From Sphingomicrobium astaxanthinifaciens (GTDB lineage: Bacteria > Pseudomonadota > Alphaproteobacteria > Sphingomonadales > Sphingomonadaceae), in NCBI RefSeq assembly GCF_022865105.1, contig NZ_JAKNYM010000002.1:529501-593500 (forward strand): DNA of 64,000 bases, given 5' to 3'. The notes under the pieces were generated by a model, which was not told the DNA's origin, did no database searches, and saw nothing but the letters and a program-made list of their open reading frames with translations. A program made the position numbers and the translations under genes. Position 1 is the stretch's first letter; each line of letters starts with the position of its first letter. Shown in pieces: positions 2-5,487 of the stretch.

Positions 2-3000
2 ATCAAGCGCGACGCCGACACCTTCGTCGACGTCATCACCGCCGAGGACATCGGCGCGCTGCCCGACCGCTCGGTCGCCGAATCGCTCCAGCGCGTGCCC
101 GGCGTGAACATCAGCCGCTTCGTCCAGCGCGACGACCCCGATCGCTTCTCGGTCGAGGGCTCGGGCGTGATCATCCGCGGACTTCCCTACGTGCGCTCGG
201 AACTCAACGGCCGCGACATCTTCTCGGCCAACGGTGGCCGCACGCTCGGCTTCAACGACGTCTCGCCCGAACTGCTCGGGCGCGTCGAGGTGTTCAAGAA
301 CCTCACCGCCGACATGGTCGAGGGCGGCATCTCGGGGACGGTCAACCTCGTCACCCGCAAGCCGCTCGACAATCCCGGCCTCAAGATCGCGGGCACGATC
401 GAAGCCAATGTCGGCGACCTCGCCAAGGAATGGTCGCCCGGTTTCTCTGGCCTCGTGTCCAACACCTGGGACTTCGAGGCCGGCACCATCGGGCTCCAGG
501 CTGCCTATGCGCAGCAGGAGCTGGTGACCCGCACCGACGCCAGCCAGATCACCGACCCCTGCTTCCGTCCCGAGACGCTGCTCGCCGACCAGCCCTGCTT
601 CCGCTCGCTGCCGACCGGTTCGGGCGGGATCGACGGCAATGCCGATCCGCTCGGCCCCGACGAGTTCGACACCACCGGGCTGATCATCGCGCCGAAGGGC
701 GCGGGGGTGCGCACCACCACGCTGACCCGCGACCGTAACGCCTTCTCGGGCGTCGCGCAGTTCGAGAGCGCGGGCGGCGAACTCCTCATCACCGCCGAAT
801 ATCTGCGCGCCGAGACCGACGGCAGCCTCGCCGAATTCGCGGTGTTGGCGCAGGTCAACGACGACAATTTCAGCCCGGTCATCGCGCCCGGCACCAACCC
901 CGTCATCATCGGCCGCGAGCTGGTGTCGGCCACGCTGACCCAGACCAGCCAGGAAGGCATCACGGGCATCCCGACCGAGACCCTGCGCTTCGTGCAGCAG
1001 GACGGCGCGATGACCGAGGACTTCTCGGTCGACGTCGATTTCGCGCTGACCGACCGGTTGCGCGGCAACGTCGAATTTCAGACGATCAACTCGGATCGCA
1101 GCCTCGACGGCGTGATCACCGCGATGCGCTCGTTCAGCGACATCTTCTACGACAATTCGGGCGAGACCCCGGTGGTCCGCTTCTTCGAGGCGGGCAGCGG
1201 CGGCAACGCCGACCTCAGCGCGGTCGCCGACCCCGAGGGCATCTACTACTGGTTCCACCTCGACGGGCGCCTGCGCAACGAGGGCGACCTCAATTCGCTG
1301 CGCGGCGACATGGAATATGACCTCGAGGCCGGCCCGCTCAAGCGCGTCCGCTTCGGTGCCCGCTGGGCCGAGCGCAACCAGAAGACCCGGCAGGCCACCT
1401 ACCAGGTCTGGTCGAACCTCGGCGACACCTGGACCACGCGGAACGGCGACTGGAGCTGGTCGCAGAACGACCCGAGCCGCTTCTACGGCGCGGGCGGCGG
1501 CGCCTATGTCGTCGACTTCCCCGGGCAGGCCAGCCTGTACGATCCGTTCGGCGACAACTTCCAGCGCGGCAACGTGGCCGCCCCGGTCGGCGCGGCCTTC
1601 TACTACGGCGGCGACGACCTGCTCCGCAAATATCTCGCGGGCACGCTCGAGGCCGACTTCCAGGCGATCCAGGACTTCACCCGTTCGCCCGAACAGCGCG
1701 ACCTCATCCCGCTCGACGAGGACGGCGAGCCGATCTTCCAGCCCGCCAGCGTCACCAGCGTCGGCGAAGGCACGCTCGGGCTCTACGCCCGCGCCGATTA
1801 CGAGCATGAGTTCGACAACGGCTGGGTGCTCGATGGCAACTTCGGCGTGCGCTACGTCGAGACCAACGTGCGCAGCGACGGTATCCTGAGCTTCCCCGAG
1901 CCGGGGGTGATCGACAACCCCGAGCTGGGCGGTGACGGCGACGGCGTCGCCGAGCGTTCGGATCTCGAGGCGGTCTGCGCCTTCATCGCGGGCAACCCGG
2001 GGCTCAACCGCAGCTTCTGCTCGCTGCCCGATTCGCGCCGCGACGAATATGTCGCCGCGTTGAACGGGGCGCGGACCGACCTGGGGTCGGGGCAGAGCTA
2101 CGACAACTGGCTGCCGAGCTTCAACGCGCGGCTCGACTTCGGCAACGGCATGCTCGTTCGCGGCGCGGTGTCGAAGGCGATCTTCCGTCCCGACCTCGCC
2201 GCCAACGGCGTGGGCGGGGTGATCGGCGACAATATCGGCGTCCTCGTCCAGTCGGGCACGCTCGACAGCGGGCCGCTGTTCGCGATCAACACGGGCAACC
2301 CGTTCCTCAATGCCACGCAGGCGTGGAACTACGACCTGTCGTTCGAATGGTATTGGGACACGGTCGGCTCGCTCACCGTCACTGGCTTCATGAAGGACAT
2401 CGACGACGTCGTGACCTCGGGCGCGGTGGTGAACCAGCTGGTCAACTCGGAGACGGGGCTCGCCTATGACGTTCGCGTCGACGGCCCGCAGAACCTCGAA
2501 TCGGGTCGCCTCAAGGGGGTCGAGGTCGCCTACCAGCAGGTCTACGACTTCCTGCCCGGCGCGCTCGGCGGGATCGGCTCGCAGCTGACCTACACCTATG
2601 TCGACGGCGGCGAGTTCTTCAACGACGCGGGCGGCGCGCGGCAGAGCCCGTTTGCGCAGGGGCTCCCGCTCGCGGGCATCTCCGAGCACACGGTCAACGC
2701 GGTGCTGTTCTACGAATATGCCGGCCTGTCGGCGCGTGCCGCCTACAACTGGCGCTCGGACTTCCTGCAGACCCCGCGCGACGTGATCTTCCCCTTCTCG
2801 CCGATCTATGGCGAGGACACCGGGCAGCTCGACGCGTCGATCTTCTACGCGGTCACCGACAATGTGAAGGTCGGGGTGCAGGGGGTGAACCTGCTCGACG
2901 AGGTCACCCGCACCTCGCAGCTGATCGATTACGACGGCACGCGGATCACCCGCTCGGCCTTCCGCAACGATCGCCGCTTCACCTTCCTCGCCCGTTTCGA

Positions 3001-3007
3001 CTTCTAG
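2..3007 (+). CDS. TonB-dependent receptor, 5'-truncated by window edge
   Basis: Outer-membrane active-transport receptor of the Caulobacter/Xanthomonas/Sphingomonas type (TIGR01782-like). The first complete codon is at base 2 and the frame is open to the edge, so the signal peptide and start lie outside the window. The visible 1001 residues begin inside the plug domain (DVITAEDIGALPDRSVAESL, then LQRVPGVNISR), followed by the plug sequence FKNLTADMVEGGISGTVNLV and a long beta-barrel with many alternating aromatic strands. The C-terminus FLARFDF ends in phenylalanine, as expected for BAM-assembled barrels. Substrate is not evident; relatives are often linked to oligosaccharide or siderophore uptake. 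A clear terminator follows 26 bases after the stop. The family call is firm, the ligand unknown. Confidence 0.95.
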   Translation: MKRDADTFVDVITAEDIGALPDRSVAESLQRVPGVNISRFVQRDDPDRFSVEGSGVIIRGLPYVRSELNGRDIFSANGGRTLGFNDVSPELLGRVEVFKNLTADMVEGGISGTVNLVTRKPLDNPGLKIAGTIEANVGDLAKEWSPGFSGLVSNTWDFEAGTIGLQAAYAQQELVTRTDASQITDPCFRPETLLADQPCFRSLPTGSGGIDGNADPLGPDEFDTTGLIIAPKGAGVRTTTLTRDRNAFSGVAQFESAGGELLITAEYLRAETDGSLAEFAVLAQVNDDNFSPVIAPGTNPVIIGRELVSATLTQTSQEGITGIPTETLRFVQQDGAMTEDFSVDVDFALTDRLRGNVEFQTINSDRSLDGVITAMRSFSDIFYDNSGETPVVRFFEAGSGGNADLSAVADPEGIYYWFHLDGRLRNEGDLNSLRGDMEYDLEAGPLKRVRFGARWAERNQKTRQATYQVWSNLGDTWTTRNGDWSWSQNDPSRFYGAGGGAYVVDFPGQASLYDPFGDNFQRGNVAAPVGAAFYYGGDDLLRKYLAGTLEADFQAIQDFTRSPEQRDLIPLDEDGEPIFQPASVTSVGEGTLGLYARADYEHEFDNGWVLDGNFGVRYVETNVRSDGILSFPEPGVIDNPELGGDGDGVAERSDLEAVCAFIAGNPGLNRSFCSLPDSRRDEYVAALNGARTDLGSGQSYDNWLPSFNARLDFGNGMLVRGAVSKAIFRPDLAANGVGGVIGDNIGVLVQSGTLDSGPLFAINTGNPFLNATQAWNYDLSFEWYWDTVGSLTVTGFMKDIDDVVTSGAVVNQLVNSETGLAYDVRVDGPQNLESGRLKGVEVAYQQVYDFLPGALGGIGSQLTYTYVDGGEFFNDAGGARQSPFAQGLPLAGISEHTVNAVLFYEYAGLSARAAYNWRSDFLQTPRDVIFPFSPIYGEDTGQLDASIFYAVTDNVKVGVQGVNLLDEVTRTSQLIDYDGTRITRSAFRNDRRFTFLARFDF

Positions 3008-3032
3008 TCGCGACGCGCCAGATCAACGCAGG

Positions 3033-3062
3033 GGGCCCCGGCAGCGATGCCGGGGCCCTTTT
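3033..3062 (+). terminator. Rho-independent terminator after TonB receptor
   Basis: Perfect 10-bp inverted repeat (GGGCCCCGGC / GCCGGGGCCC) with loop AGCGAT, followed directly by TTTT. Confidence 0.9.
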
Positions 3063-3140
3063 GCTTGGCGGGTAGGCGGGCGCGAGCGCGGGCGCGGGCG
3101 CGGGCCGGGCGCGAGCCGGGACGCTCCGCCGCGGCGCGCC

Positions 3141-3551
3141 TCACGCACCCGGCGCCGCGCTGCACGCGTCGGCCCATTCGCCGCGGAAGATGGCGCGCGC
3201 GCTGACGATCCCCATGTCCTCGTAGGCGAGCGTGCAGAAGTCGAAGAGCGTGTCGGCCTCGAGCGGTTCGAAGGTGAAGGGGTCGGGCAGGTGGTAGTCG
3301 GCGATCCGCTGGCTCTCGAGGATGGTCAGCGCGCGGTGCCGCCGATCGCGCGCGAGCGTGGCGATCAGCCGGTCGATCGCGCGCGCCGGCCCCTCGAGGC
3401 ACTGGAAGAATTCGTGGCTGCTCGAATAAAGCGCCGAGCGCAGCCCGCGCCGGATGTTGTTGCGCCGGCTCACGGCGATGATGTCGTTGAGCTTCTTGAA
3501 GGTGATCGGCCCGGTCGGCGCGCTCACGTAGCAGACCCTAAGCAGCGGCAA
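3141..3551 (-). CDS. Short BLUF-domain blue-light sensor
   Basis: A 136-residue protein consisting almost only of a BLUF (FAD-binding blue-light) domain. The photocycle residues are present at the AppA spacing: Tyr8 (VCYVS), Asn32 (SRRNN) and Gln50 (FFQCLEG), i.e. 24 and 18 residues apart. The DRRHR turn at 69-73 is also typical. The beta5 Trp/Met region of AppA or BlrB is not recognisable; the stretch reads IADYHLPDPFTF. The start is TTG, chosen because a strong AGGAGG lies 5 bases upstream and the upstream frame has no better candidate. It overlaps the end of the upstream PAS-GGDEF-EAL gene by 14 bases, so the two are probably translationally coupled. Inferred role: light input to the c-di-GMP enzyme. 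BLUF assignment is firm; the partner relationship is inference. Confidence 0.9.
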   Translation of the reverse strand: MPLLRVCYVSAPTGPITFKKLNDIIAVSRRNNIRRGLRSALYSSSHEFFQCLEGPARAIDRLIATLARDRRHRALTILESQRIADYHLPDPFTFEPLEADTLFDFCTLAYEDMGIVSARAIFRGEWADACSAAPGA

Positions 3552-5178
3552 GGTCGCCTCCTGCCCGCCCCAGCTCCTCGAAGTTGGTCGGGCGACCGAG
3601 GAAATAGCCCTGGAACAGCTCGATCCCGGCGGCCTCGAGCAAGGTGCGGGTCGCCGCGTCCTCGAGCCCCTCGGCGATCAGCTCGAGCTCGAGCGAGCGC
3701 GAGATCGAGGCGAGCGCGCTGATCACCGCGACATTGGCCTCGCTGTGCAGGTCGTCGACGAACGACTTGTCGATCTTGAGCGCGTTGACCGGCAGGCGGC
3801 TGATGTGCGCGAGGCTCGAATGCCCGGTGCCGAAATCGTCGAGCGCGATGCGAAAGCCGCAGGCGCGCACGTCCTCCAGCGCGCCGTAGAGCGCCGAGCC
3901 GGGGTCGAAGAAGGAGCTGTTCTCGGTGATCTCGACCACGAAGCGGGTCGGGTCGAGCCCGCGCTGCTCGATCTGGCGGGCAAGCCGCGGCGCGAACTTC
4001 TCGCTCAGCAGGTTGGCGGGGGTGCAGTTGAGGTGGATGACCGGGTGGGTGCCGACCATCGCCGCGAGCGCGGCGCTGTCGCGGATCGACTGCTCGAGCA
4101 CCTGCAGGCTGAGGTCGGGGTCGGTCAGCCCGGCGGCGAAGGCCTCGGGACGCTGCACCCGCTTGCCCGAGCGGGTGCGCGCCAGCGCCTCGACCCGGAC
4201 CGCGTCGGGATCGGCGAGCGAGACGATCGGCTGGAACGCGGTGAACAGGCGCCGTTCGGCCACCGCGGCGGCGAGGACGGCGACCTGCGCCGCCTTGGCG
4301 CCGAACGGGTCGGGCAGCGTGTCGGTGTAGAGGGTGGCATTGCCCTTGCCCGCGGCCTTGCCGTTGTAGAGCGCGATGTCGGCGCGGCGGAGCGCCTCGT
4401 CGAAGCTGTCGCCCGAATACCAGCGCGCCAGCCCGATGGTGCAGGGGATCGAGACGCGCGCGCTGCCGCATTGCATCGGTCTCTTGAGGGTGCGGATGAG
4501 CTTGCGCAGGAAGCGCATGGCGATCCGCTCGGAGACCGGCTCGGGGAAGAACATGGCGAATTCGTCGCCGCCGATCCGGCACAGCTCGGCGAAGGGGACG
4601 ATCTCGCGCATCAGGTTGGCGGCATGGCGCAGGGCCTGGTCGCCGACCGCGTGGCCGAAACCGTCGTTGATCGGCTTCATGTTGTCGAAGTCGCACAGCG
4701 CGACCCACCCGCTCTTACCCGGCTTGGCGAGCGTGCGCGAGACGATCCGGTAGAAGGCGCGGCGGTTGCGCAGCCCGGTGAGCGTGTCGTGCTCGCTCGC
4801 CCATTGGGTCTCGATCGACTTGTCATGCTGCTCGGAGATGTCGACGACCACGCCGGAGATCAGCGTGCGGTCCTCGCTGCCGCTGGCGAGCCCGAAACAG
4901 CGGACCCGGCGCAAGGCGCCGCGCGCGCTGATGATATCGGCCTCGAAGCTGAACTTCTCGCGCTTGTGCAGCGCCTCGAAGACCGCGCGGCGCACGGTGT
5001 GGCGCGACCCGCGCGAATAGAAGCCGAGCGCGCGATCGAGCGTGATTGGCTCGCCCACCGGCACGTCGTGGAGGCGGTAGGTGCCGGGCGACCAGTCGAC
5101 GTGGCGGTCGCCGTCGCGATATTGCCAGCACCCCACCTTCGCGAGGCTTTCGAGTTTGGCGTCCTGGGCCAGGAACAC
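3538..5178 (-). CDS. PAS-GGDEF-EAL cyclic-di-GMP enzyme
   Basis: Putative dual cyclic-di-GMP synthase/phosphodiesterase, 546 residues. An N-terminal PAS-like domain covers about 1-118 and shows no membrane segment, so the protein is predicted cytoplasmic. The GGDEF domain (about 125-285) has LTGLRNRRAF and an intact GGDEF at 203-207; no RxxD inhibitory site sits five residues before it. The EAL domain (about 300-535) keeps its catalytic set: EAL 330-332, Asn384 (LNCTP), Glu416 (VEITE), DDFGTG 447-452, Lys468, Glu503 (AEGLED) and QGY 523-525. Both halves therefore look competent. The GTG start has a weak G-rich ribosome site. The gene is followed, with a 14-base overlap, by a BLUF photoreceptor gene, suggesting light control. 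Confidence 0.93.
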   Translation of the reverse strand: MFLAQDAKLESLAKVGCWQYRDGDRHVDWSPGTYRLHDVPVGEPITLDRALGFYSRGSRHTVRRAVFEALHKREKFSFEADIISARGALRRVRCFGLASGSEDRTLISGVVVDISEQHDKSIETQWASEHDTLTGLRNRRAFYRIVSRTLAKPGKSGWVALCDFDNMKPINDGFGHAVGDQALRHAANLMREIVPFAELCRIGGDEFAMFFPEPVSERIAMRFLRKLIRTLKRPMQCGSARVSIPCTIGLARWYSGDSFDEALRRADIALYNGKAAGKGNATLYTDTLPDPFGAKAAQVAVLAAAVAERRLFTAFQPIVSLADPDAVRVEALARTRSGKRVQRPEAFAAGLTDPDLSLQVLEQSIRDSAALAAMVGTHPVIHLNCTPANLLSEKFAPRLARQIEQRGLDPTRFVVEITENSSFFDPGSALYGALEDVRACGFRIALDDFGTGHSSLAHISRLPVNALKIDKSFVDDLHSEANVAVISALASISRSLELELIAEGLEDAATRTLLEAAGIELFQGYFLGRPTNFEELGRAGGDLAAA

Positions 5179-5341
5179 GTGTCTTTCCCCCGCAAGCGAT
5201 GCCTGGGAGTGTAAACGGTTTACGGCGCGGATGGTCGACCCTTGCTCCGAAACGGAGCCGATTGGCGGAGCACCGGCCGCGCGCGTTCGGGGACGGGGCG
5301 ATGACCGCGCCGATTCGGTGCGAGCACGGCGCGGCGGGGCG

Positions 5342-5365
5342 CAAAAAAAAGGGGGGGCAGCGGGA
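5342..5365 (-). terminator. Possible terminator of tRNA-Thr transcript
   Basis: On the minus strand, downstream of tRNA-Thr, a C7 run is followed by T8 (bases 5342-5349). The hairpin before it is weak (CCGCGG...CCCGC), so termination is only likely. The remainder of 5179-5411 shows no other feature. Confidence 0.35.
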
Positions 5366-5411
5366 TGCCAACCGCGGGCGGCGGCGCACGGCGCGTGCCG
5401 ACCAGCGGATA

Positions 5412-5487
5412 TGGTGCCGCAGAAGGGACTCGAACCCCCGACCCCATCATTACGAATGACGTGCTCTACCAGCTGAGCTACTGCGGC
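5412..5487 (-). tRNA. tRNA-Thr (anticodon CGU)
   Basis: Minus-strand cloverleaf of 76 nt with CCA encoded. The acceptor stem GCCGCAG pairs with CTGCGGC, the D-arm is GCTCAGCTGGTAGAGC, the anticodon loop is TTCGTAA with anticodon CGT in the DNA (reads ACG, threonine), and the T-loop is TTCGAGT. The two outer T-stem pairs are G-U. Confidence 0.95.

Follow-up and report, generated by a model that had tools for sequence, protein, structure and literature searches.

Several systems are known in which a BLUF photosensor is tied to an EAL protein, and they differ in whether the two reside on one chain or on two. In Rhodopseudomonas palustris the short BLUF protein PapB and the EAL protein PapA, which is described as a solo EAL protein, are two separate proteins forming a light-controlled heterotetramer (PMC8846402). 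In BlrP1 of Klebsiella pneumoniae a BLUF domain is coupled to an EAL phosphodiesterase within one polypeptide, with the BLUF domain at the N-terminus and no GGDEF domain. Escherichia coli BluF (YcgF) also carries BLUF and EAL domains, but its EAL domain is degenerate, without phosphodiesterase activity, and the protein acts on BluR as an anti-repressor (PMC3509220), and BlsA, a short BLUF protein, is described as acting on Fur (PMC5955987).

The locus analyzed here lies in the window, by which we mean the whole stretch of 64,000 nucleotides of Sphingomicrobium astaxanthinifaciens DNA, and consists of a short BLUF gene directly behind a gene for a PAS-like-GGDEF-EAL protein (Table 1). It resembles the PapB-PapA pair in that the photosensor, a short BLUF protein, and the c-di-GMP enzyme, an EAL protein, are encoded separately, but its enzyme has an intact GGDEF domain in addition. 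The original prediction compared the split design with the fused chains of BlrP1 and YcgF and did not name PapB-PapA; the design is not in itself new, since PapB-PapA is already a two-protein, light-controlled system as described (PMC8846402). The principle of a split between BLUF and EAL is therefore known; what is different here is a GGDEF-EAL partner with a further sensor domain, and how widespread and one-sided the arrangement is.

Table 1. Features of the BLUF gene pair and of the site that holds it (window positions).
Feature	Position	Strand	Description and basis
PAS-like-GGDEF-EAL gene	3538..5178	-	546 aa, GTG start, predicted c-di-GMP synthase/phosphodiesterase; Pfam, residues
Short BLUF gene	3141..3551	-	136 aa, TTG start; Pfam, AppA relative, AlphaFold2 model
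Shine-Dalgarno AGGAGG	3557..3562	-	Five bases 5' of the BLUF TTG; sequence
tRNA-Thr (cgt)	5412..5487	-	Bounds the variable site upstream of the pair; ARAGORN
GC-rich hairpin followed by TTTT	3032..3063	+	Terminator-like, at the end of the neighbouring TonB-receptor gene; bounds the variable site at its other end; sequence

The two genes overlap by 14 bases, the stop codon of the enzyme gene lying inside the BLUF gene, and the BLUF start context reads AGGAGG-CGACC-TTG. Both the overlap and the spacing of AGGAGG five bases before TTG were as predicted from the open reading frames and the sequence, and together with the strength of the Shine-Dalgarno sequence they support the view that the genes are laid out for joint translation. 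The BLUF and EAL domains are nevertheless separate chains, being encoded in different frames with a stop codon between them. Scanning upstream of the pair returned no sigma-70-like promoter, such a scan being uninformative at 70% GC.

In the enzyme, the EAL and GGDEF domains were recognized by Pfam (7.5e-51 and 4.8e-31, respectively), but at the N-terminus only PAS_3 was reported, with an E-value of 0.17, which is below the Pfam cut-off. The region is nonetheless homologous to the segment located directly N-terminal of GGDEF in a related protein, L035 (32% over 111 aa, E 5e-18 in this one comparison). Of the predicted PAS-GGDEF-EAL architecture, the last two domains thus stand above the cut-off whereas the first does not and is PAS-like by homology, which makes "PAS-like" the safe wording. 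Catalytic residues, assigned through family knowledge and alignment with the closest solved relatives, are complete in the GGDEF site (D163, K168, N171, D180 and GGDEF at 203-207) and in the EAL site (E330, N384, E416, E419, D447/D448, K468, E503, E506 and Q523), in agreement with what had been claimed for both domains, and in the case of EAL in contrast with the degenerate domain of E. coli BluF. An inhibitory RxxD I-site was absent from the enzyme in the same residue check.

The window BLUF matched PF04940 with an E-value of 1.5e-18 and 67 bits (cut-off 25), over profile positions 1-83 of 92. Its residues Y8, N32 and Q50, corresponding to the Tyr, Asn and Gln of the flavin hydrogen-bond network, align with those of AppA, the BLUF domain of which is the nearest solved relative, and with those of 16 other BLUFs paired with EAL genes in the survey described below; the AppA-like spacing that had been proposed is therefore confirmed. 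Across the 17 paired BLUFs, that of the window included, Y8, S10, N32, Q50, D69 and R71 are invariant and H72 is nearly so. BLUF domains fold as a beta sheet with two helices, followed by C-terminal helices, and the AlphaFold2 model of the window protein (pLDDT 86) adopts the BLUF fold, with AppA, PixD and TePixD as the top PDB matches in Foldseek. We infer that the protein binds FAD.

Two features of the window BLUF are unusual: R38-S39 take the place of the usual T-G ("TGaL"), and the Trp/Met commonly present in beta5 is absent. That residue is semi-conserved among BLUF domains, typical of them but not strictly defining; among 79 aligned BLUFs, at least 90% have Trp. Judging from sequence, these losses may have altered the photochemistry or the output of the protein. 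A frameshift was considered as the source of the odd C-terminus and ruled out, because third-position GC remains coding-like (0.82-1.0) up to the stop codon; the other frames were read as well.

The pair fills a 2.4 kb site between a TonB-dependent receptor gene and tRNA-Thr (window positions 3007-5412), the latter also adjoining the site in four congeners. At the receptor end, the hairpin listed in Table 1 received no call from the terminator scan. At the same chromosomal place one congener (G203) has about 140 bp, another (G231) about 0.9 kb and a third (G200) about 7.3 kb, in which an autotransporter-like gene and a LytS/LytTR-like pair are found instead. Since these genomes differ from each other at this place, the site is variable and the pair was probably gained there.

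Orthologs of this exact gene pair were sought across the genus (71 genomes, 70 of them congeners and one that of the window) and in 200 genomes of the family; neither the 70 congeners nor the 200 family genomes yielded one, so that orthologous conservation of the pair within the genus can be rejected. Outside its own genome, the enzyme has best matches of only about 30-35% identity among the genus and family genomes, and the best matches of the BLUF in the same genomes reach about 40% over its core. Scanning the genome contigs with the window BLUF as a single sequence gave no match, owing to its divergence. In the BLUF tree the protein is an orphan on a long branch with unsupported placement, the best identity in the tree set being 35% and that to the paired BLUFs 20-29%. 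In the EAL tree the window enzyme groups, with support of 96, with the GAF-(PAS-like)-GGDEF-EAL proteins L035-L038, and no BLUF was detected beside these closest relatives. A single clade of paired BLUFs or paired EALs containing the window proteins was thus not seen, the enzyme falling with unpaired GAF-...-GGDEF-EAL proteins and the BLUF remaining unplaced. With both window branches being long, this does no more than suggest that the window pair is a separate recruitment.

The orphan sequence, the missing beta5 Trp/Met and T-G and the variable site by tRNA-Thr, which spans about 140 bp in one congener and holds other genes in another, could be taken to mean that the pair in this genome was recently captured from elsewhere, or is decaying, and that its BLUF has lost the ability to sense light. 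The BLUF frame and codon bias are, however, intact over the whole gene, the Tyr, Asn and Gln of the FAD pocket are retained and the model remains a BLUF fold, and we regard this explanation as very unlikely.

Other evidence came from a survey of the surroundings of BLUF genes in the genus, in the family and in 289 class genomes drawn for this purpose, in which EAL and GGDEF domains were sought with profiles built for the survey. An EAL gene was found directly upstream, on the same strand and within 200 nt in 17 of 243 distinct alphaproteobacterial BLUFs, a sample that is not fully unbiased, as the enzyme search contributed one pair (L053) and the BLUFs at family level had been identified through their similarity to that of the window. 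None of the 243 had an EAL gene downstream or on the opposite strand at a like distance, the nearest other case lying on the opposite strand 460 nt away (L167). In the 17 pairs the gap between domain ends is 50-126 nt, many of the genes overlap by 1, 4 or 11 bases, and the sensors of the partners are PAS, GAF, MHYT or none that could be recognized. The pairs of Methylobacterium, Aureimonas, Rhizobium and Sphingomonas share with the window pair the gene order, the strand and the near-zero spacing, and some of them also a PAS-like domain, but the members sampled keep the beta5 Trp and the T-G which the window BLUF lacks.

One BLUF clade, here called clade A, was in addition searched for in named genomes; it was picked because it is paired, and the resulting frequency (79 of the best 80 loci are directly preceded by a same-strand EAL gene, with GGDEF seen in 75) is therefore not a base rate. 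These loci come from the Hyphomicrobiales, Sphingomonadales, Acetobacterales, Geminicoccales and Rhodospirillales. The lone exception among the best 80 is a BLUF of Nitrobacter winogradskyi (L326, 3001-3363) with no EAL neighbour, which is perhaps a decayed pair; the match to it begins at query residue 23. According to public annotation, a plasmid of Aureimonas sp. AU20 that is typed as mobilizable carries such a pair, its two genes overlapping by 4 bases. As to whether the two genes keep company in other genomes, a check proposed along with the original prediction, the answer is twofold: the arrangement recurs (17/243 in the survey and 79/80 of the best clade-A loci), while the exact pair of the window is absent from the 70 congeners and 200 family genomes.

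Mapped onto the EAL tree, pairing requires 8 changes, as against 48 in shuffles, and well-supported branches make at least 5 of the 8 unavoidable; for the BLUF tree the counts are 8 and 16.6, and at least 3 changes are unavoidable. Given the changes forced on the EAL tree and the strong clustering, the same layout has probably arisen or been lost several times.

In Novosphingopyxis baekryungensis DSM 16222 the domains are found as PAS-GGDEF-EAL-BLUF in one open frame (L278/L385). The BLUF domain is C-terminal in this fusion, as the BLUF gene follows the EAL-encoding gene in the window, in contrast with the N-terminal BLUF of BlrP1. The model of the fusion reached a pTM of 0.65, obtained with an unpaired alignment and with a low-confidence linker. 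Fusion of proteins that are usually separate neighbours is a classic sign of interaction, and this natural in-frame fusion and the wide recurrence of BLUF genes behind GGDEF-EAL genes argue that the BLUF acts on the enzyme.

We therefore regard it as probable that the two genes form an operon in which the short BLUF binds its co-translated PAS-like-GGDEF-EAL partner and light alters c-di-GMP turnover, most likely by increasing EAL hydrolysis. The BLUF, a blue-light sensor holding FAD, would bind the enzyme in trans, and light would shift c-di-GMP turnover by the partner. As with PapB-PapA and BlrP1, the most likely output is that the EAL domain hydrolyses more c-di-GMP in blue light; the GGDEF domain would provide a second activity or have a regulatory role, and an extra input would come through the PAS-like domain. 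Both the formation of the complex and the direction of the light effect are steps that we infer.

The intact GGDEF residues and the lack of an I-site make synthesis possible, and nearly all of the paired partners have a GGDEF domain, so that blue light might instead change synthesis through the diguanylate cyclase, or flip the balance of a bifunctional enzyme. Against this, EAL is always the domain adjoining BLUF, in gene order as well as in the fusion, the known BLUF-linked c-di-GMP enzymes work through EAL, and in one pair from the same genus (L120) the GGDEF motif is degenerate and the EAL motifs are kept; control of the GGDEF output is in our opinion unlikely. A target elsewhere, such as a transcription factor or another EAL protein, with the two genes being merely co-transcribed, would be in keeping with the fact that 226 of the 243 short BLUFs in the survey stand alone and with the diverse partners of known short BLUFs (Fur for BlsA, BluR for BluF), but the one-sided recurrence beside EAL and the natural fusion speak against it, and we consider it improbable, more so than control of GGDEF.

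Beyond the window, control of the EAL partner by BLUF may form part of a broader pattern, which we put forward tentatively, as a possibility with somewhat less than an even chance: that alphaproteobacteria have repeatedly and independently placed a short BLUF behind a bifunctional GGDEF-EAL enzyme with interchangeable sensors (PAS, GAF, MHYT), amounting to a general light switch for c-di-GMP built of two proteins and taking two inputs, of which the window pair would be a very divergent member signalling without the beta5 Trp/Met. In the literature searched, which was mostly freely readable, no description of BLUF behind GGDEF-EAL was found, and priority is not established thereby.

For the majority of short BLUF proteins no partner has, to our knowledge, been described, and the recurrent one-sided pairing together with the natural fusion points, for one class of these, to a concrete partner. 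Light control of c-di-GMP can be put to the test in genera living on plants and in soil, such as Methylobacterium, Aureimonas, Rhizobium and Sphingomonas, and, if the proposed mechanism is true, the PapB-PapA principle would extend to enzymes that are bifunctional and carry a second sensor domain, and the pairs would supply parts for the optogenetic control of c-di-GMP.

Further BLUF loci of the genus deserve mention. The L120 pair mentioned above (genome G219, 554-5209) is part of a row of genes on one strand, encoding a PAS-PAS histidine kinase, the GGDEF-EAL protein, whose GGDEF motif is degenerate but whose EAL motifs are kept, the BLUF and a LuxR-type (FixJ-like) response regulator; judged by its gene content, this row is a possible light-linked two-component island. 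In three congeners (L126, L129 and L131) a divergent solo EAL gene of about 275 aa is found some 1.3 kb away from a BLUF gene, with a NAD kinase-like gene in between at L126; at this distance they were left out of the pair count, and the solo EAL is possibly a PapA-like partner nearby. The window's own genome has another BLUF gene (L002, C1:234153); about 0.5 kb downstream of it, the opposite strand carries a GGDEF gene.
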